Origin: Hysterangium stoloniferum
Taxonomy: Eukaryota; Basidiomycota; Agaricomycetes; Hysterangiales; Hysterangiaceae
NCBI GenBank assembly: GCA_015178975.1
Contig: WHVD01000269.1
Location: 1 to 64,000, forward strand
Direction: 5' to 3'
DNA length: 64,000 nucleotides
The notes under the pieces are model-generated. The model searched no databases. It had not been told where the DNA came from and worked only from the letters and a program-made list of their open reading frames with translations. Positions within the stretch are counted from its first letter, which is position 1. The number at the start of each line of letters is the position of its first letter. Positions 1-61,949 of the stretch are shown in pieces. Position numbers and translations under genes: made by a program.

Positions 1-3000
1 CTGGGAAGAGCATGCCAAGGGAGATGAGCCATGATGTGCAGACAAGGAGGAAAGGGTCAGAAACTCACAGACTGGGAAGAGCATGCCAAGGGAGATGAGC
101 CATGATGCAGACAAGGAGGAAAAGGTCAGAAACTCACTTGCTAGGAAGAGCATGCCAAGGGAGATGAGCCATGATGTGCAGACAAGGAGGAAAAGGTCAG
201 AAACTCACTTCCTGGGAAGAGCATGCCAAGGGAGATGAGCCATGATGTGCAGACAAGGAGGAAAAGGTCAGAAACTCACAGACTGGGAAGCGCATGCCAA
301 GGGAGATCAACTGTGATGTCCAGACAAAGGAGGAAAAGGTCAGAAACACACAGGACTGGGAAGAGCATGTGCTCAAGGGAGATGAGCCATGATGTGCAAA
401 CAAGGAAGAAAAGGTCATGAAACTCACAGACTGGGAAGAGCATGCCAAGGAGAGGAGATGAGCCATGATGTGCAGACAAGGGGGAAAAGGTCAGAAACTC
501 ACAGACTGGGAAGGAGCATGCCAAGGGGAGATGAGCCATGATGTGCAGACAAGGAGGAACAGGTCAGAAACTCACTTCCTGGGAAGAGCATGCCAAGGGA
601 GATGAGCCATGATGGGCAGACAAGGAGGAAAAGGTCAGAAATTCACAGACTGGGAAGCGCATGCCAAGGGAGATGAGCCATGATGTGCAGACAAGGAGGA
701 AAAGGTCAGAGGCTCACAAGCTGGGAAGAGCATGCCAAGGAAGATCAACTGTGATGTGCAGACAAGGAGGAAAAGGTCAGAAACTCACTTGCTGGGAAGA
801 GCATGCCAAGGGGAGATGAGCCATGATGTACAGACAAGGAGGAAAAGGTCAGAAACTCACTCGCTGGGAAGAGCATGCCAAGGGAGATGAGCCATGATGT
901 ACAGACAAGGAGGAAAAGGTCAGAAACTCACTCGCTGGTAAGAGCATGCCAAGGGAGATCAACGGTTATGTCCAGACAAGGAGGAAAAGGGCAGAAACTC
1001 ACACACTGGGAAGAGCATGCCAAGGGAGATGAGCCATGATGTGCAGACAAGGAGGAAAAGGTCAGAAACTCACGCGCTGGGAAGAGCATGCCAAGGAAGA
1101 TGAGCCATGATGTGCAGACAAAGAGGAAAAGGTCAGAAACTCACTTGCTGGGAAGAGCATGCCAAGGGAGATGAGCCATGATGTACACACAAGGAGGAAA
1201 AGGTCAGAAATTCACAAGCTGGGAAGAGCATGCCAAGGGAGATGAGCCATGATGTGCAGACAAGGAGGAAAAGGTCAGGAACTCACAAACTGGGAAGAGC
1301 ATGCCAAGTGAGATGAGCCATGATGTGCAGACAAGGAGGAAAAGGTCAGAAACTCACTCGCTGGGAAGGGCATGCCAAGGGAGATCAACCGTGATGTTCA
1401 GACAAGGAGGAAAAGGGCAGAAACTCACAAACTGGGAAGAGAATGCCAAAGGAGATGAGCCTTGTTGTCCAGACAAGGAGGAAAAGGGCATAAACTGACA
1501 AACTGGGAAGAGCATGCCAAGGGAGATGAGCCATGATGTGCAGACAAGCAGGAAAAGGTCAGAAAAACTCACTTCCTGGGAAGAGCATACCAAGGGAGAT
1601 GAGCCATGATGTACAGACAAGGAGGAAAAGGTCAGAAACTCACTTCTTGGGAAGAGCATGCCAAGGGAGATGAGCCATGATGTGCAGACAAGGAGGAAAA
1701 GGTCAGAAACTCACTTGCTGGGAAGAGCATACCAAGGGAGATGAGCCATGATGTGTAGACAAGGAGGAAAAGGTCAGAAACTCACTTCCTGGGAAGAGCA
1801 TGCCAAGGGAGATGAGCCATGAGGTGCAGACAAGGAGGAAATGGTCAGAAACTCACTTGCTGGGAAGAGCATGCCAAGGGAGATGAGCCATGATGTGTAG
1901 ACAAGGAGGAAAAGGTCAGAAACTCACAACCTGGGAAGAGCATGCCAAGGGAGATGAGCCATGATGTGCAGACAAGGAGGAAAAGGTCAGAAACTCACAG
2001 ACTGGGAAGCGCATGCCAAGGGAGATGAGCCATGATGTGCAGACAAGGAGGAAAAGGTCAGAAACTCACTCGCTGGGAAGAGCATGCCAAGGGAGATGAG
2101 CCATGATGTACAGACAAGGAGGAAAAGGTCAGAAACTCACTTCCTGGGAAGAGCATGCCAAGGAGATGAGCCATGATGGGCAGACAAGGAGGAAAAGGTC
2201 AGAAACTCACTTCCTGGGAAGAGCATGCCAAGGGAGATGAGCCGTGATGTGCAGACAATGAGGAAAAGGTCAAAAGCTCACTCCCTGGGATGAGCATGCC
2301 AAGGGAGATGAGCCATTATGTGCAAACAAGGAGGAAAAGGTCACAAGCTCACAAGCTGGGAAGAGCATGCCAAGGAAGATCAACTGTGATGTCCAGACAA
2401 GGAGGAAAAGGGTAGAAACTCACAAACTGGGAAGAGCATGCCAAGGGAGATGAGCCATGATGTGCAGACAAGGAGGAAAAGGTCAGAAACTCACAGACTG
2501 GGAAGAGCATGCCAAGGGAGATGAGCCATGATGTGCAGACAAGGAGGAACAGGTCAGAAACTCACAGACTGGGAAGAGCATGCCAAGGGAGATGAGCCAT
2601 GATGTGCAGACAAGGAGGAAAAGGTCAGAAACTCACACACTGGGAAGAGCATGCCAAGGGAGATAAGGCATGATGTGCAGACAAGGAGGAAAAGGTCAGA
2701 AACTCACTTCCTGGGAAGAGCATGCCAAGGGAGATGAGCCATGATGTGCAGACAAGGAGGAAAAGGTCAGAAGCTCACAAGCTGGGAAGAACATACCAAG
2801 GAAGATTAACTGTGATGTCCAGACAAGGAGGAAAAGGGCAGAAACTCACAAACTGGGAAGAGCATGCCAAGGGAGATGAGCCATGATGTGCAGACAAGGA
2901 GGAAAAGGTCAGAAACTCACAGACTGGGTAGAGCATGCCAAGGGAGATGAGCCATGATGTACAGACAAGGAGGAAAAGGTCAGAAACTCACTCGCTGGGA

Positions 3001-3540
3001 AGAGCATGCCAAGGGAGATCAGCCATGATGTGCAGACAAGAAGGAAAAGGTCAGAAACTCACAGACTGGGAAGAGCATGCCAAGGGAGATGAGCCATGAT
3101 GTGCAGACAAGGAGGAAAAGGTCAGAAACTCACTCGCTGGGAAGAGCGTGCCAAGGGGGATCAACGGTGATGTCCAGACAAGGAGGAAAAGGTCAGAAAC
3201 TCACAAACTGGGAAGAGCATGTCAAGGGTGATGTGCCATGATGTGCAGACAAGTAGGAACAGGTCAGAAGCTCACAAGCTGGGAAGAGCATGCCAAGGGA
3301 GATGAGCCATGATGTGCAGACGAGGAAAAGGTCAGAACCTCACAGACTGGGAAGAGCATGCCAAGGGAGATGAGCCATGATGTGCAGACAAGGAGGAAAA
3401 GGTCAGAAACTCACAGACTGGGAAGAGCATGCCAAGGGAGATGAGCCATGATGTGCAGACAAGGAGGAAAAGGTCAGAAACTCACTCGCTGGGAAGAGCA
3501 TGCCAAGGGAGATGAGCCATGAGAAACAGACAAAGAGCAA
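1..3540 (-). repeat. 71-bp tandem array, each unit an intron-like 68-mer plus a variable triplet
   Basis: About 50 head-to-tail units of 71 bp (range about 69-73). Read on the minus strand each unit starts GTGAGTTT, ends CTTCCCAG and is 68 nt long, followed by three bases before the next GTGAG. I counted 49 junctions: 48 have a 3-nt spacer and one (352-355) has 4 nt. One 3-nt junction (1644-1646) has a changed acceptor. The spacers read in sense as TCT 12, GAA 8, CGA 7, TTT 6, CAA 5, CTT 5, TGT 2 and CGC, GTT, GGA once each; none is a stop. The unit contains CTGAC and CTCAT, which resemble fungal branch sites. The array continues the intron chain at 3486-4999 on the same strand and is cut by the window edge. 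The unit structure is seen directly; use as introns is inferred. Confidence 0.93.
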
Positions 3541-4999
3541 CAACTTACCCCCTATAGTGCCCATCCCAACAATTTTCCAAGAGGGCAATTGAAGTTGTAA
3601 TTATAATTCTGATTACAAGGAAGCAACAAATCCTCACCCCCTGCAATCCCAGATGTAAACCCATTGAGTCCCCTTTCTTAAATTGATCCCAAAGAACAAT
3701 ACATACATCCAGCTTTACATCCAAACAATCTGCCACTCAATATCCACATAGACATAGAAATGAATACATCACTAACCTCCTAAATTGTCCTTAGCACATT
3801 TAGCCATGTGATACGACAGAGTTGGATACACTCACTCTCTGCAGGCAATCCACACAACCCAAGATGGTAAGCATTGTTATCCAAACCTTGACAATGCATT
3901 CAACCAGACAACACATACAGTCTAAACAGAAACCAGAGTGTCACGAAATAAGCTCCCAAACTTATATACACATTACTTACAGCCTACCTCAACCAGAGCT
4001 TTTAATACAAGTACAATGGTTATTTTGGGAGACACTCACCTCAATCTGTTTGAGAGTTACAAATATAACATTTGTCTACCTTAGTAGCCAAGCCCAAAGA
4101 ACATTCTAACTTACAGCCTATCAAGGATGTAAGTAGGTGATGTAATTAGAACTCAGACTGATTTTACATTCTTTTCCAAATGTCAAAATCATATAAGGTT
4201 AACTTCAATATACCCATATAAGCATACTCACTATCTGTGCAGTTTAAAATTAGTAGGATTATACTCTTATTAGATTAATGATTTATTCATTAGATGTGAG
4301 CACTTACATCCTGAGTCATCCACAAGTTGTTGAGCGACTGCAGGAATGTATTGTCCAAAAACACTTACCATCTGCCACATTGTAGTTTACAGGAACAGCT
4401 ATGAGCCAGTGTATGCAAAATGGAGGAGACATACTCACATCCTATTGGCAATGTACTAGATGAAGCTCATACCGCACTGAAACAGCGGGAAGGGCTTACC
4501 CTCTATTAAATATGTCAGAAGCCAAACAAACACATGACAAAGCCATACTCACAATCTAAATATCTTGAGCAGTATTATAATCATATTTGCTAAAATACTC
4601 ACCAGCTGGAGACACGATCATAAAATAGTTGAATGAATGTAAACCGAATAAAGAAGACTGCAGCAGTAGAAATGTGTTACATACTTTCTATAGTGACCAG
4701 GGAGAAACGGAGATCAATATAATGATAACACTTCCCAAGGTTAGACCTACATTCTGCTCAGAAGCAATGATATTAAGTTAGATAAGGCAATAACAATCAC
4801 AAGGATGATCAGCTCACAAACTAACGCCAATATACTGGGATCAATGATGGCCAGACATTGTCAACACATGTATGGACACTCACGCTCTACCAACAAAATA
4901 TGAGGAAATGACATGAAAAGAGGATAGCTTCAAGTCACTCACGGGCTGTTGTTACCAATGTTTGAACATGATGGTGCAGGGGTTACAACATTCTCGTAC
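3486..4999 (-). CDS. Chain of single-codon micro-exons, C-terminal extension of the GTPase gene
   Basis: On the minus strand, donors (GTGAG, GTAAG, GTTAG, GTATG, GTAGG) recur every 50-120 bp, each exactly 3 nt after a CAG or TAG. Clear 3-nt exons start at plus positions 4943, 4884, 4818, 4751, 4603, 4553, 4500, 4439, 4369, 4308, 4232, 4115, 3981, 3919, 3836, 3777, 3638, 3549 and 3486. A 6-nt exon lies at 4040-4045. Possible extra exons with AAG acceptors are 4681-4683, 4168-4170 and 3707-3712 (6 nt). Intron lengths are about 47-86 nt, normal for fungi, and the intron sequences are not related to each other. In phase 0 the sense codons read P S F N (Y) L I R D M D I, then (N) A I-E A T R E (L-D) G G R, with no stop. 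Exon 8 of the GTPase also ends in phase 0. The alternative is one very long intron removed through many ratchet points. Junctions are seen; splicing is inferred. Confidence 0.8.
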
Positions 5000-6335
5000 C
5001 AAGACGTGTGGAAAACAATACATGACCGCGCAGAACAAGGATTTTGCTTGTTTTTCGGAAAATGTGCCTGATTCGAGAACAACTGAGAAAAGTGGTACCC
5101 GTGCATTCAATCGTCTATCTTGCATTGGCCATATCTTCCCTCACCTTGCCCTTGCGGTATAATTATCCTTGGGTATCCATGTATTGGCAGTCTACCTTTG
5201 AAGGCGGAGAACTGGGTAGCTTACTTGTTGATAACTTGTTTGATACGAGATTCAATATTGATCCGCAATATCGACAGACAGAACAGTTTCAGGGTGTCAC
5301 GGTCAAGGGCCTGTGAGGTTCTCACGATCAGCTCATCACAATTAGTACCCTCTTTGTTCATGTCTGAGGAGTGTGGTTAAGCACGTTGCTGTGCCATCGA
5401 CAAGAAGCAATGTACCACGGAGGTATACAACATAACGAGGCTTGTGTTTTACTTCGTTGAGTCGTTTGAGATATTTCTTTTGAAATATCTCCTCTGCGAG
5501 ATCGGGAACTTTTTTTTCAATTGCTTCACGAGAAAGATCATCATCATTGAACATTAACTGGTTGCGTGCCTCCTGGTCCAAAGCATCCATCTTCGTAAAA
5601 ATGGCGATAATAGGGACTTGAATGATAATGAGAATAATAAGCAGTGGGTTCAACTGATGAAGCAGATAATCGCTGACCATTTCCCGTGCTCCTCTCAAAC
5701 AGACTCATCTCTTTATCGGTCATCCCTCTATCGTTACTAGTTGGCAAACAATACCTGAACCACAAAAGTCAGAAATTAGAAAAATAACACAGACGTTCAG
5801 CGCACCAGATGGCATGTAGTTGATCCTTTAATTGCGCACCCTTTGCTCGGCTTTCGATAAAGTTTCTGACTTTTTGCAGCTCGACAGCACCACCCGCTTC
5901 AAACCCGCAGGAGTCATGAAATACGAAGCCGTGAGCAGTTGGATATTGAAACTGGTGTTCGATCTCGTGGTTTCCGCGCTAAAAATTGCCATTAGTGCAC
6001 CACCACTGGAGGTATGAGTCGATCCGACACGGACCGATGCCGACGGCTCCAACTTTGAATCGTTCTACATCAGGTAAGTAACAAAAGAATAAAGTAAACT
6101 GCATTGGGGATATTGCAGTTAGGTATGGCACAGATAACTTACATTGAGACAGACCGGTTCGCGACCCTGGGCATGGCACACCTTTTCCAGAATGGTTGTC
6201 TTTCCAGCGTTGGCGTTGCCAATGACCAAAATTCGAAAATGTTCGACTTGCTATTTGGATATCAGAAGGTAATCTGCTATTGTTATGAGCACTCCTTACA
6301 AGATTATTGGAATTTTCAAGTTGTTCTTGCGACAT
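5000..6335 (-). CDS. P-loop GTPase (agaric G-domain protein), exons 1-8
   Basis: Exons, high to low: 6335-6300, 6250-6143, 6064-6035, 5978-5806, 5754-5678, 5616-5416, 5363-5225, 5114-5000. They join in frame to about 293 residues. Introns are 49, 78, 56, 51, 61, 52 and 110 nt; intron 5 ends in AAG. Start ATG 6335 gives MSQEQLENSNNL, followed by Walker A (GNANAGKT, about residues 23-30), the G3-like FHDSCGFEAGG typical of this fungal family, HAIWYCLP, and the G4 motif VPIIAIFTKMDAL. The conserved C-terminal part contains RDMNKEGTNC and TSQALDRDTLKLF. Exon 8 ends YCFPHVL in phase 0 at donor 4999 and leads into the micro-exon chain. The family is a TRAFAC-like GTPase expanded in Agaricomycetes; its biological role is unknown to me. 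No stop or frameshift is needed. Exon 8 is the least certain exon. Confidence 0.85.
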
Positions 6336-6352
6336 GATGTGCTCGATGTTGA

Positions 6353-6640
6353 ATGTCTGAGATGATGTGCGACGCGAGATGGTCTATATCGTGGGGAAGA
6401 CTAGGGCTAAGCGCCGCGCCTGCCACGGGAAGACCTACCAATAATGCGGTAAAAGCCATTCCACCGGTTCAGTTTCTAGCCACGGGTTGGAAGCTCGTGA
6501 TTGAAAGGATCACACTTGCGAAGCATAAACACGGTGTGTTGGAAGCGATGTCATCAGTAAGTGTCTTCTTATGGTGCAAGCGCCGGTGGAGACTCCCAGT
6601 GAGCGTCAATACCACGATTGAGGTTCCAACCAAGATTTGA
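6353..6640 (+). other. Open stretch divergent from the GTPase, possible exon
   Basis: A 95-codon open frame starts 18 bp from the GTPase start codon on the other strand. It is richer in CpG than the surrounding transposon DNA and contains a GTAAGTG donor-like site near 6560. The protein has a plausible composition (for example AIPPVQFLATGWKLVIE), but I do not recognise the family. It could be the first exon of a divergently transcribed gene sharing a promoter with the GTPase, or a decayed gene. Nothing downstream supports a continuation. Confidence 0.25.
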
Positions 6641-7240
6641 TTTGATTGAGCGGGTTTGAAAGCTGGTCTCCTAGTTAGGAAGAGACAAGTAATCTCGGCG
6701 AAACCTGAAATAAAACCATTGTTTGTCCCACGAAGCTTAACCTAAGCATTTCTTTTGTTTACGAAGAGGGCGCTCAATTTTTAACACACACGCACGCCCA
6801 ATGACCAGAGGGAAGTGAGCCATCACACATTTACTAGGAGTGTGATCTGGCTGAGGACGGGTGGACAAAATGGAGGTGGTGGGAGAGACATGGAAGTCAC
6901 ACAATAGTGAGGCATCTCTGTGTCAGTCAATGGGGGAGATGGCGGTGACACTGGGGAATAAATCTAATATGCAAAGGATGGCAGTGATAGAATTGATCAC
7001 CAAATAGACCTATGCATATACAGAAGGTAGCAGCATTCTTAGATATGTTGCAAACCTTGTCCAAGCCATCACCAAGATATATATCAACAGGAAGTACACC
7101 AGTTCTGTTAGGTAATTGAGCCTTGAAGAATGCGCAAACGGAAAAATGAGACAGTGTATGTCTCAAAATGACATAATTAACTTCGGTTTGAATCTCCTCT
7201 TAAAATGTATTGTTATATACGTGTAGGATAGTAAGGTGGA
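6641..7240. other. Intergenic, no gene seen
   Basis: AT-rich sequence with only short open frames and no recognisable motif on either strand. Confidence 0.6.
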
Positions 7241-11822: not shown

Positions 11823-14800
11823 GAAGAATAAAAGTTTCAATAAACGTTTCTTGAAAAACATGTCAGAACCTGTAAAAGCAAAGAGAGACATAGGGCAACA
11901 GGGAATAATGTAAATGAGTCCAAATGTAACATGGGGTCCACGGAGTGCAGTCAAAGAGAAGATAGTGGTCCAGGTTTAAGTGAGTAAGCTGTGTGAAAGT
12001 CAGTAATGATTTCCGTGGCATTACTGAGTTCTGTGGCCAAAATCCATGAAGTTTCTTCATCGGTGCCCTCATAACCTGCCCACTTGACCAAGTAACACAG
12101 TTTACAAGTGCATTGACGCTTGTCAATTTTTGAGTCTAAGATTTGCGAGATTTCAAACTCGGGTTCTCCATCAATAATGACCAGAGGAGGTGGAGATTAC
12201 ATGTGATCCGGGATAGTGTTAGCAGTACAAGGTTCTAGCATAGAAACATGAAATACCAGGTGTACCGTGCACATGCTATCCGGAAGCCGTAGGGTCCAAT
12301 AAACTGAACCTACTTGTGTGATAATTTCAAATGGACCTAAATATTTTTCAGCAAGATTTTTTGATGGATGGGTAGTCCAGAAGAATTGAGCTTTGACAAA
12401 AACACGGTCCCCAATCTTGAAGTTGGGTGGAAGGATCTGGTGTCTGTCTGCTGAAAGTTGGTATTGCTCTTGGGCGGACTTTATTGCAGTCCAGAGTTCC
12501 TCGTGGAGCTCGTGGAGGTCTGTGGTGAACTCTTGAGTCCGAGCAGAGGCAAGATTTCATTCTGGATGTACTGTAATATTTGGATTATATCCTTTATTTG
12601 CAAAGAATGGGGAAACGCCAGTAGGCAAGTGGTAACAAGGATTTCCAATTTTCCTGTTGATAGTTGCAATATACGTGGAGATATTGTTCCAATGTCTGAT
12701 TGATGCATTCGGTTTGTCCGTCGCCTTCCGGGTGATGTCTGGATGTGAAGTGTAATTTTATGTCCAAGGATTTCCCAAGGGATCTAAAGAAGTGAGATAC
12801 GAACTCTGATCCTCAATCGGAAGTTATATGGGATGGAACTCCATGCTATCATATTGAAAGCAGATAGATATTCAGACAAGTGGGCCTGCTGACGGGTCAA
12901 AAGCTTTGTGGTAGAAAAGTATTCCAGGTTTTTGTGATCTGTTACAATGTCAATCGGGGTTCCCAAGCCTTCCAAATAGTGTCGTCACACTTTGAAAGCT
13001 GAAAGAATTGCCAGGAGTTCCTTATCATGAACATCTTAGTTGAGCTCTGTTCCGGTGAAAGTCCGGGACAGAAAGGCCACAGGGTGGACTTCTCCATTGG
13101 AGTCCTGGATAGACAGAATGGCTCCAAGTGCATAATCTGAGGCATCCATTTCAATGATGAGCGGGAAGTCCAGTTTCCAATGCAACAGAATAGGACTAAA
13201 GAGAAGGAATTTTTTAAAATATTGAAAGCTTTTTGACACTTATCATTAAAATTCCACAGAGTATCCTTATGTGTAAGATGGGTAAGGGGTACCGTGATGT
13301 CAGAATATCCATGGATAAACTGTCTGTAAAAATTGGCAAAGCCAAGGGAGGATTGTATATCTTTAACTTTTTGGGGTTCAGGCCAACCTTTGATGACTTG
13401 CACTTTAGTTTCATCCATGTGGAGTCCATCGGGTCCCATGATGAAACCCAGGTATTCCATGGAGTCCGTGTCAAAAGTACATTTTTTACCATGCGCGAAT
13501 AAACCATGTTGTCTGAGTCTCCGGAGAACTTCATGGACTTGTTTGTCGTGTTCTGTGGGATTCTCAGAGTAGATAAGAATGTCGTCCAAGTAAACAATAA
13601 TGCATACATCGAGCATGTCGGAGAAAGTGTTGTTGATAAAACACTGAAAAACAGACAGAGCATTGGTGAGTCCAAAGGGCATCACCAACCACTCGAAGGC
13701 CCCATAATGGGTTCTAAAAGTGGTTTGCCATTCGTTGCCCACAGCAATCTGGACCAAATGATAGGTGTGTTTGAGATCTATTTTGGTGTAAATCTGGGCA
13801 TTCTGTGGAGCATCGAGTAGATCAGATATAAGTGGGAGTGGATACATATCCTTTTTGGTGACACCATTGAGGCCTCTGAAATCAACACATAGTTTTAGGA
13901 TCCATCCTTTTTTCGGACAAACAGAACAGGTGCTCCAAAAGGAGACTTTGAGGGTCTGATAAAACCAATGCACAAATGTTCATTCAGGAAATCGTGGATT
14001 GCAGAAAGTTCCGTGGATGAGAGCAGGTAGTTATGTCCTAGGGGTGGCTGGGTGCCATCTTTAAGATCAGTTTTTAAGTTGTATTCTCTGTGGGGCAGAA
14101 GCCAGTCAGCTTTCTGCTTGCTAAAAACATCTGCAAAGTCATGATATTTCTCCAGGACGCCTTCTAGGTCAGCGGCTTGCTCAGATTCGGATACTGGAGT
14201 TGAAAAACGTCCAGTTGCTTCATCAATTTCCAAATTGATAGTGAATGCCTGGGACCCATACATTTTTTGTAGCCCTAATAAAAGCTGCAGCATTAATCAG
14301 AGAAATAGATGGAGGTGCTGTGGGTTCTGGGGAAGCCATGGGCGCTGTAGGGATCACAGGAGTCCTTGAGACTGCAGGTGCTGGGAAGGCCATGGGTGCT
14401 GTGGAGGCCGTGTCAGGTGCAGTTTCCTCGGCTGCTGCGGGAGTCCGGAATGTTATACTGTTAGCTATCCAGTCAATCAATGAATTGTAGCGGGTAAGCC
14501 AGTTGTGTCCAAGGACCACCGAGCAACTTGAGTCTACCTGGGTCACATAGAAAGTGACCAATTGAGTTGTTCCACACGGGAAACAGATGGATAAATCACA
14601 AGCTTGGGTAACAACCGAATCACTTGTGCCATCGAAGAGGTGGAGGCCAATGGGATTAATCAGATAAATTGACAACAAATTTTTTTGCATGAATTTTGTA
14701 TCTAAAAAACAATGAGTCAAGCTGGAATCTATAAGAGCTGAAAAAATGAATTTTCAGATCATATTAGACATAAGTTTAATGAAAAATGAATCAGAATGTG

Positions 14801-15846
14801 AAAGAGAGGATGTGTTGAGACGAATAAACTCTTGAATGCGTGGAGAGGCAACGCAACCCCCAACCTGCACAGAGTCTGCAGGGTTGCTTACTCTTTTTTC
14901 GAGTCGGAAGCCAGTTTGTCCTTCAACGGGGTTTCCATGTAGGCCTTGGCTGTTTGACCCTTTGAAGAGTTTGCTTTTGCCAGCAGACATTCTGGGACCT
15001 GATGACTAGGTTTCCCACACAAGAGATAGAGGTTATTGTCCATGCGACATTGTCTTTCCTGTGGGGTCAATTTGCCATCGGGTCTGAGTTTGCCTGAGAG
15101 GTTGGGTTTTCCAGCTTGCTTGCCAGACTGTTGACCCTTGTTATTGTCCTTCTTGTTGTTGTGGTTTGAAGACTTTTTATCATTGTTCTTGTCAGATTGC
15201 ATGGAGTTTTGGTTGCTGGTTGACAAATTGTTGTTGTTGTTTTTATTGGCCATGGACTTGTTTACTTTGTCCACGGAGGTCTCGTGGGCAACTTCTGCAT
15301 GATATTCCCAATAGTGTGCATCCACATTTTGAGCTTTGAGGTGCATATGGGACAGGGTTTTTGGCTTGCCATCTTCCCCTTTCAAGACTTTGTCTTTAAG
15401 GTGGGATGGCAGACTGGCATAGAATTGGTGGCAGAGAGTGGGATCACCCCACTGACAACGAGCTGCAAGAGTATTGAATTGGATGATATAGTCCATGATG
15501 CGCTGCGTGTCCTTCATACAAAGATTTGTGAGACTGTTCTCAGCTTCACCTGTTGGGTCATATGGGCCAAAGTTGGTTTCAAGCTCCATAACAAAAGCAT
15601 CCCAATCTTTGTTAGATTGAGAATTTATATTTTGATTCTTTTTTCCTGACAATGATTGTAATAGATACTTAAGAGTTGTGGATGTGGGAGGGTTTGCCTG
15701 TAGCAAAGTGGTGGGGGCAGCTCACTTTGATTGGGGTAAATACTTAGAGTTGTGGATGCAGGGCTTTCTGTTCTCAAATAATGAGTCTCAGAAATAGTTA
15801 AAAGTTCTGGATGTGGGGTTGTGGGGCCAGTTATGAAGTGACCATC

Positions 15847-18225: not shown

Positions 18226-19022
18226 TCTGTCAGGAACTGGAAAACCCACTGGCCTCTGGGCCCCTGGGACCTCATCCTACATGCTCCCAACCCTCTATAT
18301 TGTATAGTTACAACTGGAGTTCCAGCCAGAGCCTGCATGTCAACTTGTTTATGCCTGACTCTCTCTGTAGGCACCCACCCTATCTGTACCCAACTCTCTA
18401 TACCCACTACCAGACAACCTGCTGGGACCCGGACTACACCCTATATACACCTGACTCTCTGTATCTCACGGACCAGTCACCAGACTCCGACCTGACTTCC
18501 TGGAACCCCTCTAACAGAGCATAGAACCCTGCTCCTGTTATGGTCAAATGGTCTGTCATGTGTCTCATGTACCAGTCATCAGACTCCACCAGACTCAGAA
18601 CTCCACCCTGTATACACCCAACACTCTGTATCTCATGGACCAGTCACCAGACCCCGACTGGACTCCCTGGAACCCCTCTAACAGAGCCCCATTCCCATTA
18701 TGGTCTAATGACCTGTCATGATTCATTCTCTGCTCCTGTTCCGTTCCGTCCCTAATTCCCAGTTTAGTATTTAGTTGTTTTGTTTTATGTTTGATAGTTC
18801 TGCCCCTCATTAATACTGGATTTGGTATTATTATATTTCAAAGTCTATGGAAGTCTGCTACATTCATGTACTTAGAATCCAGTTTCAATCTCGAACAAGT
18901 TTGACCCTCAAACAAGTTACACCCCTGATCCAGTCTCTAGTCCTCTTGTCTGTCTGCACGCTCAATTCCTGGAACTCCCACAGGAACTTGGGAATCTACA
19001 TCCCCTTGTATGCATTCTGTCA
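18226..19022 (+). mobile_element. Family-c LTR fragment inside chromovirus B
   Basis: Starts TGTCAGGAACTGG and follows the family-c LTR (compare 20634 and 37413, reverse complement) up to about 19022. The string ATGCATTCTGTCAG occurs at both junctions (about 18222 and 19010). Confidence 0.7.
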
Positions 19023-20633
19023 GCTTGGCAGAAGTGAAAGCATTTTTCAAAGTCTGGAAAGCAGAATGGCATTTGTCATCAAAATCCCATGGTTGATATT
19101 TACAGGTAAGGTGAGTGAGCGGCATTGTAATATCCAAGTAGTTCTGAATAAAATGACAGTAGAAGTTTGCAAAACCTAAAAATGACTGGATGTCTTTGAC
19201 TTTCTGTGGTTCGGGCCAATCACAGACAACTTGAACTTTAGTTTTGTCCATACAGAGACCATTGGGTCTGATAATGAAACCTAAATATTCAATAGAATCC
19301 ATGTCAAAATAGCATTTTTTATCATTGGTGAAAAGACCATTTTTTTGGAGTCTTCAGAAAACTTTGTGGACCTGCTCATCATGAAGAGCAGGATCCTTGG
19401 AAAATACCAAAATGTCGTCCAAATAGACTATAACACATACTGTATGTCAAGCATGTTGGAAAATATATCATTAACAAAACATTGAAAAATGGAAGGGGCA
19501 TTGGTAAGGCCGAATGGCATAACCAACCATTCAAAGGATCCATAGCAAGTTTTTTTTTTCCATTCATCACCCTCAGCAATTTTGACCAAATGATAGGTTT
19601 GTTTAAGGTCTATTTTGATGTGTGTAAATCTGAGCTTTCCATGGGGCATTGAGTAAGTCGGTACTTATCTTTCTGTGTTATGGAATTTAAACCTCAGAAA
19701 TCGACACAGATTCGAAGGGAACCATCCTTTTTCTTGATGAAAAGGATGGGTGCTCCATATGGAGACTTTGAGGGACAGATAAAACCTATTGACAGATGTT
19801 CATCTAAGAACTCCCGAATAGATGAAAGTTCCAATTGGGACAACAGGTAAATAGGTCCTAAGGGAGGGTTTGAACCAGGCTCAATATTTATTTTGAAGTT
19901 GTAAGGCCTATGTGGTGTAAGCCAGTCTGCTTTCTGCGTACTGAAAATATCCACAAAATCATGGTATTTTTTGGGAACTCCTTCCAGGTCAGCTTTTGAC
20001 TTGAATAATTCTGGAGTTGCAAAACATCCAAATAGTTCATCAACTTTTGAGATGATTGAAAAACATTGTTATCCATCCAGTTTACTTGCCCTAACAAATG
20101 CCACAGCATTCATGAGAGTGATTTTCAGAGGTTTGGAGGTTTTGGTAGAAGCCAGAAATGCCATTGAAACTGAAGAGGCTCTAGCCAGATTAGATGCTGC
20201 AGGAGGAACAGAAGTGTTGGGAATTTAGAAATTAATACTTCCCAATACCCAGTCAATCAATGGATTACATCAGGTGAGCCAGTTGTATCCAAGATGACTG
20301 AACAGCTAGAGTCCAACTGTCTTATGAAAAATATAACCATCTGGATGTTCCACATGGGAACTGGATAGACATGTCACAGGCTTGAGTAATTGCTGTATTG
20401 CTAGTGCCATCAAACAGATGCAAAGAGATTGTGGGAACAGAATGGAGTTATGTTTCATGGCAAAGGTGGTATCTGCAAAACAGTGTGTGGAGCCGGAATC
20501 TATCAGAGCTTGGAACACTAAATTTCCAAGGAGGTCAGAAATAAGTTTTACAAATAGTGAGTCGGGATTAGAGAGAGTGGAAATGTTAAGATGGATAATC
20601 TCAGAAACATGGAGAGAGTCAATGCAACCTCTG

Positions 20634-25004: not shown

Positions 25005-25554
25005 TGTTATGACCCGTTCCCAGATGTTTCAATATCCGACTTCCGACTTCCAATCTCCAACTACGGGACATCACAGTCACCGTATCATCCGCATTCTTCC
25101 CTTGTTCCACATTTGGTAACTTGTCCGTTGACAAGTATTCACTCGTTTGTTTGTTGTATTCCCGTTTCGGAATATTGTCTCCCTAATATGTCTTATTGTA
25201 TTTCCGTTTTAAGAACACTTCCGTTTCCGTCTTATTATGGTCTTAGTTTGTAGTACAATAACAAGTAGACTTATATTAGTTTCCGTGAATTTGTACTTTA
25301 CCTTAGATCTGATATCGACTTAGTTTCTTATTCCTCCTCCCGTCTTTCTGTACGCTCGATATTCAGAACTCTTTGGAACTCTGAATATCCATATCTTCCG
25401 TCATAAGTTCACTTCCGAAATTAAGGACATTGAGCGTTTGCGTAGAGGTGCAGCACATAAGCTGAAGCCAACGTCCTGACCCTATCCACAAGTTTCCGAC
25501 TTTCCGGTGACTTTCCGATAGTTCCGGAATAAGTTCCCGACATGGCACTTAACA
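25005..25554 (+). repeat. 5' LTR of chromovirus C (family d)
   Basis: TGTTATGACC...GGCACTTAACA, 550 bp, with the shared core GCACATAAGCTGAAGCC at about 25451. Confidence 0.95.
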
Positions 25555-25588
25555 GTATATCCAATCTCAACTCTGCGACTCGCTCATC

Positions 25589-26880
25589 ATGGGTCCCAAA
25601 CGCAAAGCTGCCGAAGGACCATCCCAACTTCAATCCCCATTGCAACTTTATACCACTCAACCCGAAACCCCAATTCAGCTGACAACATCAGCTTCAGTCG
25701 AAGAAGTTACCGAGGAGGTTACCGAGGTAACAAAGGACACCAATGTTACCCACACTTCCGACAATGAAGCAGAAGATCAGCCGGAGACATTGAAAAAGAA
25801 ATCTTCTGACAAACCGACTGAAATGTTGTTTATCAACTCCATTGTGAAATTCGCTGACTATTTGAAATCCGCTGAGGATAGTAAAGAATCATCCCACACC
25901 GGAGTCAAAGAACCCGAACCATTTACCGGAAAGGACCCGAAGAAATTGAAGAATTTTCTTCTCCAATGCTGTTTCAGTTTCTGTGATTGACCCAATGCAT
26001 TTAAATCTGACAGTCGAAAAGTCAATTTTGCGCTCTCATATCTCAAGGATACCGCTCAGGATTGGTTCAAACCCGGACTATCTGGAATATCCGACGAGAC
26101 ACCCGTATGGCTCGACGACTGGGATGCTTTTGTGGAAGAACTGGAAACTAATTTCGGACCTTACGATCAATCCGGCAAAGCGGAAAATGAACTAATGACG
26201 CTCAAGATGAAGGACAATCAACGAGTTTCCGATTATCTCGTCAAGTTCAATACCCTCGCCGCACGATGTGGATGGGACAATTCCGCCCTCAGACACCATT
26301 TCTATATGGGACTTCCATCACGCCTTAAAGACGAAATCTGCAAAGATGGAAAGCCAAAAACTCTCCAACTCATGCGGATGAACGCTCAAACATCCGATGC
26401 CCATTATTGGGAACGAAAAGCTGAGGTTTCTCGAGAGAACCCAACGGAACGTTCTCAGAACAACAAGGCGTCGACTAGCAAGTCTTCCGGCAATAACTCA
26501 GGCAATAACACCGGCAACTCTGGCACTAATACTGGCAAATCTAACTCCGACCGGAAGAAAGACAAGAAATCCAACAAGGAAAAACAGTCAACTTCTGACA
26601 AACCCGACATTTCCCATTTGTTGGGTACCGATGGTAAACTCACCCCGAAGGAGAAACAACGACGTATGGACAACGACCTCTGCCTTTTCTGTGGGAAAGG
26701 CAGACACAAGGTTTCCGACTGTACTGTTAAATCTAACTCTTCCAAGGCCCGTGCGGAAACTTCCACTACGACTACAATGTCCAAGGAAAAACCCGCCAGG
26801 GAGCTGAAAAAAGAGCAAGCAACCCTCCGGAATCTGCACGGACAGAGGGTTGCGTTGACTCTCTCTGTGTATCCGAGGTT
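25589..26880 (+). pseudogene. gag region of chromovirus C
   Basis: Starts ATGGGTCCCAAACGC after the 5' LTR and leader. A capsid-like central part contains DYLVKFNTLAARC. A Lys/Asn-rich linker follows, then a CCHC-type zinc knuckle (CLFCGKGRHKVSDC) at about 26680-26725. It binds and packages element RNA in this family. Confidence 0.85.
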
Positions 26881-26892
26881 ATCCGTCTCAAC

Positions 26893-27261
26893 GTGTCCAC
26901 TCTCTCTAATCCTGATTCATTATTTGTAAAACTTGTTTCTGACTTTCTTGGAAATTTAGTGTTCCGAGCTCTAATAGATTCTGGCTCCACACACTGTTTT
27001 GTAGATACCACCTTTGCCATGAAACATAATCTGAAACTCCATTCTGTTCCTGCAATTTGCTTGCGTTTGGTTGACAGCACTAGCAATACGGCAATTACTC
27101 AAGCCTGCGACATGTCTATCCAGTTCCCTTGTGGAACATCCCAGACGGTTACTTTTTTCGTAACACAGTTGGACTCTAGCTGTTCGGTAGTTCTTGGATA
27201 CAACTGGCTCACCCGATATAATCCGTTGATTGACTGGGTATTGGGCAGTATTACTTTCTGA
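26893..27261 (+). pseudogene. Aspartic protease region of chromovirus C
   Basis: Contains [12 protein letters not shown] (active-site DSG) near 26975-27010 and [17 protein letters not shown], typical of gypsy pepsin-like proteases. Confidence 0.85.
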
Positions 27262-27569
27262 ATTCCCAACACATCCGTTCCTCCTGCAGCGTCTTTTCCG
27301 GCCAACGCCTTTTTGGCATCAATGGCACCTCTGAAACTTCCGAGCCTCCAAAAATCTCTCTCATCAATGCTTCGGCATTTGTTAGGGCGAGTAAACTGGA
27401 TGGTTCACAATGTTTTTCGATCAGCTTAAACATTGATGAAGCATCTGGATGTTTTGCGACTCCAGAATTATCCGAGCTAAAAGCCGACCTGGAAGGAGTT
27501 CCCGAAAAATACCATGATTTCGTGGACATTTTCAGTAAGCAAAAAGCTGACAGGCTTGCACCACATAGA

Positions 27570-28968
27570 CCCGAACGACTTAAAAATCGATATTGAGCCC
27601 GGTTCAAACCCTCCGTTAGGACCTATTTACCCATTATCCCAATCAGAACTTTCATCTATTCGAGAGTTCCTGGATGAACATTTGTCGATAGGTTTTATCC
27701 ATCCCTCAAAGTCTCCGTATGGAGCACCCATCCTTTTCGTCCGAAAGAAGGATGGCTCTCTTCGACTATGTGTCGACTTCAGAGGATTAAATTCCATCAC
27801 ACGGAAAGACAAGTATCCACTTCCACTTGTTACCGATTTACTCGACACCCCACGAAAAGCTCGGATTTACACCAAAATAGACCTTAAACATGCCTATCAT
27901 TTGGTCTGAAATGCCGAGGGCGACGAATGGAAAACTGCTTTTCGGACTCGCTATGGATCCTTTGAATGGTTGGTTATGCCGTTCGGCCTTACCAACGCCC
28001 CTTCCGCTTTTCAACGTTTTGTTAATGATATATTTTCTGACATGCTTGACGTATGTGTTATAGTCTATTTGGATGACATTTTGGTATTTTCCGAGGATCC
28101 CACTCTTCACGACGAACAAGTCCGTGAAGTTTTCCGAAGACTCCATAAAAATGGTCTTTTCGCCAATGGAAAAAAATGCTACTTTGACATGGATTCTATT
28201 GAGTACTTAGGTTTCATTATCGGACCTGATGGTCTCCGTATGGATGAAACCAAAGTTCAAGTTGTCCGTGATTGGCCCGAACCATGGAAAGTCAAGGATA
28301 TTCAGTCATTTTTAGGTTTCACCAACTTTTACCGTCGTTTTATTCAGAACTACTCGGATATTACAGTACCGCTCACTCGTCTTACCCGTAAAACTCAACC
28401 ATGGGTTTTTGACGACAAATGCCGCTCCACCTTCCAGACTTTAAAAAATGCATTCACTTCTGCCCCAATTCTTTCCCATTGGAAACCTGATGTTCCAATT
28501 ATTGTGGAAACCGATGCTTCCAATTATGCAATTGCCGCGATTCTTTCCATTCAAGATTCCGACGGTGAAATTCATCCGGTCGCATTTCTTTCTCGGACAC
28601 TTTCAGTATCCGAACTCAATTACGATGTTCATGATAAGGAACTTTTGGCAATTTTTGAAGCCTTCAAACATTGGCGCCATTATCTCAAAGGTTCCGCAAC
28701 TCCCGTTGACGTTGTTACCGATCACAAAAATCTCGAATATTTTTCTACCACTAAACTTTTAACCCGCCGGCAGGCCCGTTGGTCTGAATTCCTTTCCGCT
28801 TTCAACATGATTATCCGTTTCCGACCCGAACGTCTTGGTGGAAAACCAGATGCCATGACTCGACGATGGGACGTCTATCCTAAAGAGGGGGAAAGTAACT
28901 ACGCTGTTGTTAATCCACATAACTTGAAACCGGTTTTTACAATGCAACAACTTTCCGCATCTATCTGA
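27570..28968 (+). pseudogene. Reverse transcriptase-RNase H region of chromovirus C
   Basis: Includes the RT entry motif ([16 protein letters not shown]), the polymerase motif VYLDDILVFSE at about 28062, and an RNase H start (VETDASNYAI) near 28505, followed by HDKELLAIFEAFKHWRHYL. Confidence 0.9.
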
Positions 28969-28992
28969 GCAACTTCCCTCTACTATCCAATT

Positions 28993-29895
28993 ATGCGTAG
29001 CGTCATGATTATGGACATTGAGCAATTACATCAAGATATCCTTTCCGCACTCACTTCCGACCCAGCACTCAAGCCACATTTAGAAGTTCCCGACAATCCC
29101 GACCAACCCCGATGGTCACAAGACTCACAAGGTTTTATCTGTCTCGATGGACGTATCTACATTCCAGATTCCAACAATCTCCGACTCCGCGTACTTCAGT
29201 ATAAACACGATCATCCAATCTCTGGACATTACGGCATCAACAATACTCTTGGTTTAATCCGTAGAGAATACACTTGGCCCAACCTCCGAGATTTCGTAAC
29301 CCAGTTCTGTAAGTCATGCACCACCTGCTTACGCTCCAAAACCCAGAGGCATAAGCCATACGGCCTTCTCAAGCAACTCCCGATACCAGAAAAACCCTGG
29401 AATTCAATTTCCATGGATATTCTCGAACAACTCCCAAGTTCCGAAGGTTTTACATCCATTCTAGTTGTTGTGGATCGATTCTCGAAACAAGGCATTTTCA
29501 TACCCACTCATGACACAATCACGTCCTTACAATTAGCAGAACTTTTCATTATTCACGTATTTTCCAAACACGGAGTTCCATCTCACATAACTTCCGATCA
29601 AGGCTCCAAGTTCATCTCCCATTTCTTCCAGGCCCTCGGAAAAGCCCTCGACATGAAATTACACTTCACCTCGGGATATCACCCAGAAGGTGATGGACAA
29701 ACGGAACGCGTTAATCAAACACTGGAACAATATCTCCGCATCTATTGTAATTATCAACAGGACAACTGGAAATCCCTTCTTCCGATCGCAGAATTCGCCT
29801 ACAATAACTCTCCAAAGCAACCACCGGCATATCTCCTTTCTTCACCAACAAAGGCTATAATCCGAATCTCACAGTACATTCCGAATGAGATTTAG
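28993..29895 (+). pseudogene. Integrase region of chromovirus C
   Basis: Zinc-binding HHCC part (HDHPISGHYG...CKSCTTC, about 29205-29335), then the catalytic core with MDILEQLP, TSDQGSKF and GDGQTERVNQ. These are the D, D and E neighbourhoods of retroviral-type integrases. Confidence 0.9.
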
Positions 29896-34656: not shown

Positions 34657-34953
34657 CTAATCAATTGCGAAACCGAGAAGCGAGAAGAAAGCATTATCAC
34701 ACACATATATAATAATATAGACAGTCTTTGCTACAATATAATTACTTCCTGGGCCGTGCTGATTTGAGCAACTTGCCTGGTTATGTAAGTCCGACATGAG
34801 CTTGCATATAAAACTATCCGATCTCGGGTTCATTCTTTTGGTCTTGCCGACGTCCTTGCTTTTAGGGGTAAATAGGAGCTCTTCCCCTAACATTACCCAA
34901 GTCAGTAAGTATATCTTACCCTTGCCTTTACTCTTGACCTCATGGGAAGACAT
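34657..34953 (-). other. Hypothetical open frame overlapping the F-box start
   Basis: 98 codons on the minus strand, with a lysine-rich start and a GTAAGATAT...GTTAG intron-like segment at about 34885-34919. It overlaps the F-box start codon by 12 bp. I do not recognise it; it may be noise. Confidence 0.2.
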
Positions 34954-36660
34954 TTTCTAAAGCTTTATTATATACAAGACTTGATTGCATCCTTCATCAG
35001 CCGCCCCAAAAGACATTTTCTAAAGGATGAGCCTTACGATCTACAAGACTTAATTGCATCCTTCATTAGTCGCCCCAAAGACCTTTTGTCTCTTGCGTTA
35101 ACCTGTCGAACCCTTTATACTTTGATTGTCCCAGATCACTTAGAGTTTCGCTATGTCCATTGCCACCTTCACAATCTCCATGTCTGGGAAGCACTGATAT
35201 CTCGACCATGGCTTGCAACACGAATACACAGCCTTATCATGTTACAATTTAGCTGTGGTCCACATCCAAACGAAGTCATCCCTTGGACAATGGTTGGATT
35301 CCAGGGCCATCCTCCGGGTGGTAGGAGACATCGTGAAGCATGTTTAGCGGCTTTAACAAAACTTCTACATAGAACACCCGTGCTACGTCAATTCGTTTGT
35401 ATTGATTTTGAATTCATGGAAGAGACGACTCTCTCCGAGGATTTCTTCATTGCAATACGTGACCATTGTCTCTTCCTTCAGGAGCTGCAAATGAAATCCA
35501 TACAGTTATATTCAGTAATTGCATGGATATCTGTGAGCACCAGTCCTGTTCGTCCTCCAGTCCACTGTTCGTTTCATTGGGTGTTTGACTGATTGCATTG
35601 TAAGACGCATATCTTCTCGAATCTCACACAGTTCTCGATATCTTTTAAGCCGTTTTGTCGGAAGGTCTTCACAGAGACTGCCACATATTCTTGTCCATTC
35701 ATAGATATTCTCGTCGATGGGATGCCTGCGTTACGAGATTTATGCATTCATGGATGGTGGGGTCTGCGATTACTCGCGCTTTTGGAGCGGGCCCATTGGG
35801 CGTCTCTAGAACGATTTACTATGAGATTCGGCTTTGCCGCGGATCCTGCCTTCCCATCTGCATCTGAGAGGATGGCCGCTGTCGTAGCAGGCTTTTTGGA
35901 AAAACATCCGAAAATAAAGTGTTTTCGTTCAGACGACTACCTTTTCCCTGGGAGTATTCCCGTGACCGCAGTGTTTCGGTCATTAGCATTCGTGCACATG
36001 AGGAACTTATTCACCAAGGATATAGTTCCTCTTAAGGTCCTTCAACACATTCACTCCTTTGATCTTCCTGAAGGTCTGGACTCGACGTTTATTACTATGC
36101 TCAGCCATATGCCATACCTCCGGTATCTCTCACGGGTTAAACAGTGGCATTTGTCCCAAGTTGTCCGAGTAGCATCAAACTTAGAAAGACTTGAAGTTGT
36201 GTGGTCGCAGGATGAACAATATCGTTCGGACCAGGTGAGTATTGTTGTTTGCTCAATTCTCCGGCAGTATAAGCCTCAATTCCGATTATCTCTTCAGGCC
36301 AAGAAGTCATCCATTGACGACCTTCTTAGTCTCAGACATCTAACTCATCTTAGTGCGAGTTCAGGCTGCGGTGATAACGCAGTCTCCACACCAGACGCAG
36401 TGGCAAATTTGGCATCGATTCAATCACTTCAGTACATTTCACTGACACGTAAAGGATGGCACTCGATTGAACGTGACAAGAATGGAAAATATGTCAGATG
36501 TCGTCAATTGAAGCAGTTTGATGCTGGGAAGGATCAATGGGGAGGTTATTATTTTGGTGTTTTGAAGGATGAATTTTCACTTGGTGATCACGTCTCACTT
36601 GGTGATCATGTCTACCAGCATGACGTACCCCTTACCGGCCATTCCAGGGTCATCAGGTGA
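34942..36660 (+). CDS. F-box protein with long leucine-rich-type C-terminal part
   Basis: Exons 34942-35532 and 35605-36660 join in phase 0 to 548 residues. The 72-nt intron starts GTGAGC and ends TGTAAG, an unusual AAG acceptor. The F-box-like motif DLQDLIASFISRPKDLLSLA with CRTLYTLIVPDH lies at about residues 34-65, as in many agaric F-box proteins, which recruit substrates to SCF ubiquitin ligases. The rest has leucine-rich helical repeats typical of these orphan F-box proteins. The first 45 residues hold an in-frame duplication of about 65 bp, so DLIASFISRPK occurs twice, and ATG 34942 may not be the ancestral start. Near the C-terminus LGDHVSLGDHV is a further short duplication. No other break is seen. 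Confidence 0.75.
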
Positions 36661-39903: not shown

Positions 39904-40336
39904 TGTCAGGGGCTCATACATTTTATTTTATTTTATTTTATTTTTGTTTTGTTTATTTGTCATGTGTCACATGTCACAAAGTGTGCACGTGATGTGTCAC
40001 AGTGTGTGCATGTCACAAGGCATAGTGTGCACACATGATGTCATGTGAATGTGAAATGGCTTGAAACATTGTTTCATGGCTACACAATGTCAATCATGTG
40101 ACAAACATGTGTCAAATGTAAACTTTATTTTAATTTCCTTCAAGGTTTGAACCTTCAAAAAGAACTTTATTTAGTTTTCCCTTGTTAGACCCCAGTTTCA
40201 ATCTCTTAGGATTTCCACTAAATACAAGTGTGATATTCTCAAGTCATTAGAACTTCCATTCTCCTACTCCTTATCTTGCCCTCTCTCTCTTGTTTCTTTT
40301 TGTGTTTTTGGTAGCCTTGTTAGTGTTGCCATAACA
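39904..40336 (-). mobile_element. LTR, family g, inside element D
   Basis: 433 bp, TGTCAGGGGC...CATAACA. It is the reverse complement of the copy at 43677-44104. It lies between the integrase core and chromodomain of D. No clear target duplication; contains TGTCACA repeats. Confidence 0.75.
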
Positions 40337-41823
40337 CAACCACTCTGCCCAATTATCCTGCCTATGGTTGAGAAAGAGGCTGAGATATTGTTCTACCTCT
40401 TGATTTACCCTTTCAGTCTGACCATCTGTTTGAGGGTGGTAGACTGTGGAGACTGCCACTTTGATCCCTAAGATTGAGTTCAGCTCTTGTGTGAATTTTG
40501 AGACAAACTGGGGCCCTCTATCACTAATGATCTGTAAGGGGAGACCATGGAGCTTCCATACATTATCTCTATAAAGCCTGGCCATGCCTTCTGAAGTGAT
40601 TTGGTCTGTAGTGGGTAGCACATGAATCATTTTGCTAAGTTTTGGAATATCATTGTTAAATGTACCTCCTCTTGGATAGATCCTCCATGATTCAGTGTTC
40701 CATTAACATTGTAGACTGGAACAGCTCTAGGGAGCTTGACAGTGTTAAGGTTATGATACTCCACAAATTTCCTATCCAGAAAAAGACCTGTGGATCCAGA
40801 ATCAAGGAGGGCTGTAACAGATATTCTGGCCCCTGTATCTAGTGTTTTGAGAACAACTGGAAGGTGTATAGGAGTTGTGGGATGGGTGCTTCTAATGAAA
40901 CTTTTTGTGGGAGAATTTCTGAGTAAGATGTTGCTGATAAGAGTTTGGCTTCAGTGTTTAGAGAGTCTGATTGAGATGGAGTAGTATCTGGCAGACTCTC
41001 TAGCACACTAAATTTGTTGCTCCATTGGGACATGTCTTTCACCAATGGTGCTTTCAAAAATCCTGCTTTTCCTCCTTCACCTATGCCTTGAGGGTATCAT
41101 AATCCATACTATTAATGTCCATATTGGACTTGCACTGATTGGCCTTGTGCCCTGGTTTCCTACATTTGAAAAAAATAATGGGTTTAACAGACTTCCAACC
41201 TGAATCAACCTCCATGGGTACAACCTCAGATTGTTTGACATTCTGAGCTGCTTGACTGAAGGGGTTAGGAAGGTTGTTCTGATGAGGTGGGACTGGCCTT
41301 TGGGGCTTGGAGAGCAGGCCAGAATTTTTCTTGCTAGCTTCTCTTTGCCTCCATTGCCTATCCAACTTTGTAGCCCAGTCAAACCACCCTTTCAAGGTAG
41401 TAGGCACTTCTGGGAGAGCATATATGTATCCTGTCTACCAAGGCAGAATTGAGGCTCTGCTCAAACTTTTCAATGAGAGCAGCATCATTGAACAGAGTAT
41501 CCTCCTTTAATTGCCTAAACTTGGAAATATAGTCCGCAGCTGTTAGGGAGTGTGTACTCAGACTACAGTATATGCCATGTACCCAAGTCAAGTACAAAGT
41601 TAAGGACCTACTGTCCTTAACTCCCTAGATTATATACATCCTTGTGCATCTAGCTAAAACCCTAAAGCAATACTAGGTGTCATGCACAGATTTCGTAATC
41701 TAATATCTACGCACTACTAAAGGTATTTTTCGATAGCACTATAACCCAAACCTTGGGAAGTCAGATAGGATGACAAATATAGATTTATCTGTCTAGGGTT
41801 GGCATTAAGACATGCCCTGACAT

Positions 41824-55989: not shown

Positions 55990-56199
55990 CACTCCAATAC
56001 TGTATCTGGCCACACAGAGCCATTTATCGGACAGGTCCCTTGAGGGTCCAGAAATATAATGTGGAGAAATAACTTTAAACAAGAATAAGCCAAGGGTAGA
56101 TGGGCCTACATCTCCGGGGTGACTAGATTACTGTCAGACACTGACATTAATAAAGGGGAAGTGAGACATTAAAAATCCTGACACATTTCCACAACCACC

Positions 56200-61940: not shown

Positions 61941-61949
61941 CAGCTATAA

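Follow-up and report, generated by a model that had tools for sequence, protein, structure and literature searches.

In the first part of the window (the whole stretch of 64,000 nucleotides that was analysed), eight ordinary exons were found on the minus strand between 6335 and 5000 which, when joined, encode a protein of 293 residues, and the gene looks intact. A G domain is defined by the motifs GxxxxGK[ST], DxxG, and [NT]KxD in that order, and in the joined exons we read GNANAGKT, DSCG, and TKMD in that order, by which the gene is apparently a P-loop GTPase. When the 293-residue protein was compared with Pfam, 12 families matched at E ≤ 1; the matches to G-alpha (1.3e-5), GTP_EFTU (9.9e-5), and MMR_HSR1 (0.002) were weak and below the curated cut-offs, and AAA_23 was also among the best of these weak matches. 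Neither a NACHT domain nor ankyrin repeats were among the 12 families matched by this protein, which represents the part of the gene within the window. No relative of the GTPase was confirmed in bacterial and archaeal genomes or in viral contigs, and the seven matches to solved structures all had E values of 0.49 or worse. When an additional upstream domain was looked for, the longest minus-strand open frame between 6384 and 10,000 was of 90 residues. No terminal exon and no stop codon of the GTPase gene were found within the window, and the 3' end of the gene lies beyond the window edge.

After the GTPase exons the minus strand can be read as about seventy further exons, mostly of one codon each, which fall into a chain and, beyond it, a tandem array (Table 1). 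In our curated parse the chain has 23 exons, of which two comprise two codons and all others one codon (21 exons); they are in frame and free of stops, with the weak links settled by frame; its translation is PSFNKLIRDMDINAIEATRELDGG, followed by the R of the array. Phase 0 of the chain continues the phase of GTPase exon 8 and is open over 25 codons, whereas phase 1 has two stops and phase 2 has five.

Table 1. Features of the GTPase gene, the chain and the tandem array, in the order of transcription
Feature	Position	Strand	Remark
GTPase exon 1 (MSQEQLENSNNL)	6300..6335	-	start ATG at 6335 is inferred
GTPase exon 2, P-loop GNANAGKT	6143..6250	-	Pfam P-loop matches
GTPase exon 3	6035..6064	-	
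GTPase exon 4, DSCG (G3-like)	5806..5978	-	
GTPase exon 5	5678..5754	-	
GTPase exon 6, TKMD (G4-like)	5416..5616	-	
GTPase exon 7	5225..5363	-	if unspliced at GTAAGC donor, ends at TAA
GTPase exon 8	5000..5114	-	ends ...CFPHVL in phase 0; donor GTACGA at 4999
Micro-exon CCC (P)	4943..4945	-	curated parse
Micro-exon AGC (S)	4884..4886	-	curated parse
Micro-exon TTT (F)	4818..4820	-	parser favours acceptor 14 nt upstream
Micro-exon AAT (N)	4751..4753	-	curated parse
Micro-exon AAA (K)	4685..4687	-	curated parse
Micro-exon CTG (L)	4603..4605	-	curated parse
Micro-exon ATT (I)	4553..4555	-	curated parse
Micro-exon AGG (R)	4500..4502	-	curated parse
Micro-exon GAT (D)	4439..4441	-	parser favours acceptor 14 nt upstream
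Micro-exon ATG (M)	4369..4371	-	curated parse
Micro-exon GAT (D)	4308..4310	-	curated parse
Micro-exon ATA (I)	4232..4234	-	curated parse
Micro-exon AAT (N), weak: AAG acceptor, GTAAAA donor	4168..4170	-	43-nt exon instead at penalty -8; exon lengths fit at -6
Micro-exon GCT (A)	4115..4117	-	curated parse
Two-codon exon ATTGAG (IE)	4040..4045	-	free and curated parse
Micro-exon GCT (A)	3981..3983	-	curated parse
Micro-exon ACT (T)	3919..3921	-	curated parse
Micro-exon AGA (R)	3836..3838	-	curated parse
Micro-exon GAG (E), donor GTTAGT	3777..3779	-	free and curated parse
Two-codon exon CTGGAT (LD), AAG acceptor	3707..3712	-	analyst's choice; parser has 23-nt exon from 3729
Micro-exon GGG (G)	3638..3640	-	curated parse
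Micro-exon GGG (G)	3549..3551	-	curated parse
Transitional intron, 3' part resembles array intron	3489..3548	-	z 15.9
Tandem array, 49 units of ~71 bp: variable codon + intron of ~68 nt, GTGAGT...CCCAG	1..3488	-	cut by window edge
Damaged array junction: acceptor AA instead of AG before GAA	1644..1652	-	
Damaged array junction: four-base exon TCCT before GTGTGT	346..355	-	

When the pattern YAG-NNN-GT[AG]N[GTA]N was searched for, 19 rows were obtained between 4945 and 3551, and as one of these (4230) merely overlaps the site at 4234 the number is 18, or 19 with the site at 3488. With the stricter donor GT[AG][AT]G there were 18 sites in the chain at a gap of three bases after YAG, a count that includes the by-product at 4230 and misses 4753 (GTAGGT), and three or fewer at each of the other gaps between 0 and 30. 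In first-order Markov sequences the mean number of strict sites at gap three was 0.32 and the maximum in 1000 sequences was 3. A free parser, in which all exon lengths from 1 to 60 nt had equal prior weight and the splice weights were generic and set by hand, gave exons of 3 nt in 18 of 22 cases at a penalty of -6 and in 16 of 21 at -8, whereas it found two such exons at most (mean 0.28 or 0.23) in each of 64 equally long controls taken from other parts of the window. The weak links of the chain are at 4170, 3779, and 3712. Those at 4170 and 3712 were placed by the analyst: in the free parse the latter gives way to an exon of 23 nt (3729-3707), and the former is replaced by one of 43 nt (4157-4115) when the penalty is -8. 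For the exons at 4820 and 4441 the free parser prefers acceptors that lie 14 nt further upstream. The spacing of the chain is even (mean 66, CV 0.15), and none of 20,000 random placements was as even, but this test is partly circular because limits on intron length were built into the curated parse.

The chain introns are 47 to 86 nt long and are mostly unlike each other, as only 5 of 253 pairs exceeded z = 3 against an internal shuffle (mean z 0.15). The last of them (3548-3489) resembles the array consensus strongly, and three of the other 22 reached z values of 2.7 to 3.5 in the same comparison. Since the introns are unlike inside while splice signals and frame are kept, these have either outlived other similarity or arisen independently in each unit, and in both cases the splice signals and the frame of the chain look constrained. 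Branch-site motifs were not in excess over shuffled introns (YTNAY in 16 of 23 introns against a mean of 16.5, CTRAY in 4 of 23 against 3.4) and are thus of no use for or against splicing. When 1-7000 was searched for RNA families, the single match (5602-5659) was on the opposite strand and far below its gathering score, so that no known RNA family was found in the introns.

An earlier, sequence-only reading of this DNA had described a chain of exons of exactly one codon between 3486 and 4999. Its count of 18 donors three bases after a YAG (19 with that at 3486) was reached again after the overlapping site at 4230 had been dropped, its statement that this regularity is beyond chance agrees with the Markov sequences and the parser controls, and its range of intron lengths and its observation that only phase 0 is free of stops were reproduced by the curated parse. 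The absence of common sequence among the chain introns is borne out by nearly all pairs. Other parts of it have to be modified. One codon per exon holds for 21 of the 23 exons but not for the two of two codons, and the acceptor is YAG in most links but AAG at 4170 and 3712. The chain does lie where it was placed, but the same architecture carries on to position 1.

In the array, the unit of 71 bp is made up of a 3-nt exon and a 68-nt intron, so that a complete intron plus exon is repeated in tandem. The three exonic bases are present in 48 of the 49 units, in one of these behind a broken acceptor; two of the 49 units have damaged junctions and one has a GTCAGT donor. What varies in the array is mainly the codon. 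The entropies at the three exonic bases are 1.62, 2.00, and 1.10 bits, whereas among the 68 intron columns two reach 1.20 and 0.87 and the remaining 66 do not exceed 0.78 bits (53 are below 0.3). On average, the diversity of the codon sites is 10 times that of the intron sites (46 of 50 alignment rows). Nine units with an identical 68-nt intron carry four codons (CGA, TCT, TGT or CGC), and among the 37 pairs of units with identical introns the codon differs in 26, at all three bases in 15. Ten distinct codons, none of them a stop, occur among the 48, and the identity between codons at lags of 1 to 25 units ranges from 0 to 0.22 against 0.13 overall (no formal test was applied). Outside 1-3600 the array intron has just three short and weak matches in the 64-kb window (E 0.42), one of which is inside the chain, and no relative of it was confirmed in viral contigs.

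Codon choice was examined in both parts. The 25 curated chain codons are nearer to the codon usage of the GTPase than are 225 triplets in the YAG-NNN-GT context elsewhere (P = 0.0002), nine of which are stops; the 18 codons of the plain pattern are also nearer to it than the same 225 triplets (P = 0.007), and the chain codons are nearer to it than intron triplets (P = 0.00015). The scores, although above background, are nevertheless below what is expected of coding sequence: 5.3 for the chain codons against 19.5 (sd 9.2), 1.5 for the 18 plain-site codons against 14.2 (sd 7.9), and 20.8 for the array codons against 37.2 (sd 12.7). When the ten distinct array codons alone were considered, they leaned to GTPase usage with P = 0.028. 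Absence of stops from 25 chain codons is weak evidence alone (P = 0.30); in the 48 array codons there is none against 4.4 expected under independent codon positions (P = 0.003), although the array units are related and tests that take their codons as independent overstate significance. Codons starting with A make up 11 of the 25 in the chain (4945 to 3486) and 88 of the 225 context triplets, whereas none of the 48 array codons starts with A, which may reflect descent from a few founder codons.

Markers in the array introns show how the units have been mixed. All four combinations were found in 22 of 44 pairs of intron markers, and 6 of 10 intron markers showed all four combinations with codon class. 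Adjacent introns differ at 5.07 positions compared to 5.01 in random pairs and are therefore as unlike as random pairs, which indicates that the array is well mixed. Markers 9 and 15, which are near the donor, are associated with the codon before the intron (P = 0.00015 and 0.00044), and the best association of marker 46 is with the codon after it (P = 0.00064); these P values are guides only, as about 120 marker tests were made on related units. The pattern is imperfect: 34G, 41, and 44 go best with the preceding codon, 51 goes slightly better with the next, and 58 goes with neither. Taken together, the marker patterns suggest exchange with breakpoints inside introns, which would be able to reorder single codons.

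The best explanation of these observations, to which we give a probability of roughly three in four, is that the GTPase has a variable C-terminal tail which is spliced and translated from exons of one, rarely two, codons with ordinary short introns between them and which has grown and been reshuffled codon by codon. The basis for this is what can be read from the DNA, namely the regular architecture, the frame, the codon choice, and the pattern of variation. The sequence-only reading had offered two possibilities, a real tail built residue by residue or a ratchet for the removal of one giant intron, and the former gains from phase and frame, codon choice, the absence of stops, and the variation at the exonic bases. 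With exons of three bases, complete spliceosomes are hardly able to sit on both neighbouring introns at once, and one-after-another splicing is therefore the natural way to read such a series. The pre-mRNA would be spliced by intron definition, intron after intron, and at each step three bases would join the upstream exon and a strong donor would be brought beside them, so that the growing end would resemble a normal exon end. The match of donors to GTRAGT is 3.55 of 4 after micro-exons (n = 22) compared to 2.5 after ordinary exons (n = 8; P = 0.001), a difference that is in part a product of site choice; strong donors would be expected where U1 lacks exon bases to pair with. Since exon length is divisible by three in almost all units, skipping of a unit, or damage to it, would remove one residue and leave the frame intact. 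Retention of an array intron in phase leads to TGA after three codons in 41 of 48 units, and 11 of the 22 chain introns have an in-phase stop. New units would arise by tandem duplication of a codon together with its intron, and the near-identical introns would then serve as recombination sites by which codons are added, dropped, and reordered, and the differences between codons would be maintained by selection for variety in the tail or by targeted mutation. In the older units, close to the GTPase, the similarity of the introns would have been lost and the splice signals and the frame kept.

A different possibility is that the splice sites are real but that the micro-exons are mostly or all skipped, exon 8 being joined to a normal terminal exon beyond the window and the chain aiding the removal of a long intron. 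The position of the gene's end beyond the window fits this, skipping would preserve the frame, strong sites throughout would permit stepwise removal, and the codon scores do fall short of the coding expectation. We nevertheless consider it unlikely, because skipped codons give no cause for coding-like usage, for the absence of stops, or for excess variation. The same applies to the ratchet of the sequence-only reading. Recursive splice sites, as they are described in an account of the human UBC gene, leave no exon between AG and GT (PMC10809524), and at a gap of zero the chain has no strict YAG-GT[AG][AT]G site and six plain AG-GT, against the 18 strict sites at gap three. With a gap of three, each step of a ratchet would leave a codon in the mRNA, which makes it the less likely of the two possibilities.

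Two other explanations do without a tail that is built unit by unit. The array is a clean tandem repeat, and as tandem copying alone would repeat any motif, it might be an untranscribed 71-bp satellite with splice-like ends by chance that lies beside its own decayed older part. This is improbable, as a focus of the variation on the three bases between AG and GT is then unexpected, and so is a decayed part that retains AG-N3-GT, in frame with the gene, after other similarity is gone. Least probable of all is that an older tail without interruptions received its introns singly, each between two codons, in an introner-like spread. Old codons and young introns would account for identical introns beside differing codons and for codons that look like coding ones. 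The near-constant spacing of three bases between insertions is however left unexplained, no copy of the intron is found in the window beyond 1-3600 apart from the three weak matches, and the linkage of some codons to intron markers fits copying of codon and intron together.

If the tail is translated, its likely use, purely by analogy with the nonself-recognition proteins of fungi, is in binding, with a sequence that varies rapidly. The sequence-only reading knew of no gene with a long uninterrupted series of one-codon exons, and this claim to novelty has to be reduced, as the NACHT-ANK (nank) genes of Tuber melanosporum have alternatively spliced 3-bp microexons that precede it, according to two reviews which both cite Iotti et al. 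2012 for them and in which these microexons are read as a means to diversify a sensing part (PMC4986451, PMC10197012). Multiple 3-bp microexons in a fungal gene are thus already known, and what is new here is their presence on a GTPase without a NACHT or ankyrin match. Both cases concern fungal genes for a P-loop NTPase that have multiple microexons of three bases; they differ in the domain and in that here the evidence points to diversification at the level of DNA, with varied codons beside identical introns, while alternative splicing is stressed in the two reviews. The repeat domains of fungal NLRs evolve in concert and have positively selected positions (Dyrka et al., PMC4986451). Near-identical units reshuffled by recombination, with variation at few codons, are common to them and to the array, but they are protein repeats (WD, ANK, TPR), whereas here the repeat is mostly intron and the variable codon is its sole coding part. 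In Cryptococcus CNN00420, introns were gained by expansion of an exon-plus-intron repeat, the copy number of which varies among strains (PMC2395259). There, too, the introns in the repeat are identical and an intron with flanking exon was duplicated, but that repeat measures about 107 nt, includes exon ends and belongs to a gene of six introns, compared to an exon part of one codon in 49 array units here. A three-base exon is also known from Drosophila homothorax, where micro-Ex8 is of 3 bp and the internal exons are bounded as CAG-exon-GTGAGT or GTAAGT (PMC7392893), but it is one isolated exon and not a series. Dual-specific splice sites occur in the tandem repeat gene human UBC (PMC10809524), where, as here, splice sites are in register with the repeat. 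The UBC isoforms differ by whole units; unlike here, these units are full ubiquitin monomers and AGGT is both donor and acceptor.

A more far-reaching reading, which we put forward as tentative and rather doubtful, is that the locus works as an engine for codon shuffling, in which near-identical introns are the handles for unequal exchange, single codons are added, deleted, and permuted in frame, and their diversity is kept by selection or targeted mutation. Renewal of this fast-evolving tail would take place at the end away from the GTPase, and the old units would become a fixed stem close to it. If this were true, it would be exon shuffling at the smallest possible scale, by which a gene lengthens and reorders a protein tail by single residues at little risk to the frame, and one locus would show units of both ages, young ones in the array and old ones in the chain. 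The locus would then also be a natural test of the shortest serial exon that a spliceosome can handle and of protein diversity promoted by introns through recombination, and it would suggest that the codon-sized microexons of the truffle NACHT-ANK genes are an instance of a more general device. Genes with three-base exons tend to be missed by annotation pipelines because such exons are hard to align.

Elsewhere in the window, open frames that were named Ty3/Gypsy-like retrotransposons by reading the frames are at 12942-15721 (-), 18937-19353 (-), 25553-29895 (+), and 40271-40702 (-), and in the sole one of them that was tested a Retrotrans_gag Pfam match was found at 14888-15721. A DDE_3 transposase match is in the frame 62191-62721 (-), and the open frames 56134-56553 (-) and 61580-61987 (+), which are nearly identical and oppositely oriented, have the look of a mobile element that is present twice. 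The Gypsy-like and DDE transposon genes, together with the short introns and the type of gene, suggest a filamentous fungus rich in transposons. At 34909-36660 (+) one frame has a weak F-box-like match (E 0.00078, below the cut-off) and the open frame after it matches no Pfam family at E ≤ 0.01, and an SNF2-type helicase is at 58828-59663 (-) in two overlapping frames. Finally, a 12-bp tandem repeat of about 13 copies with the unit GGGAGTCTGACC lies at 51919-52073, within long open frames of both strands.
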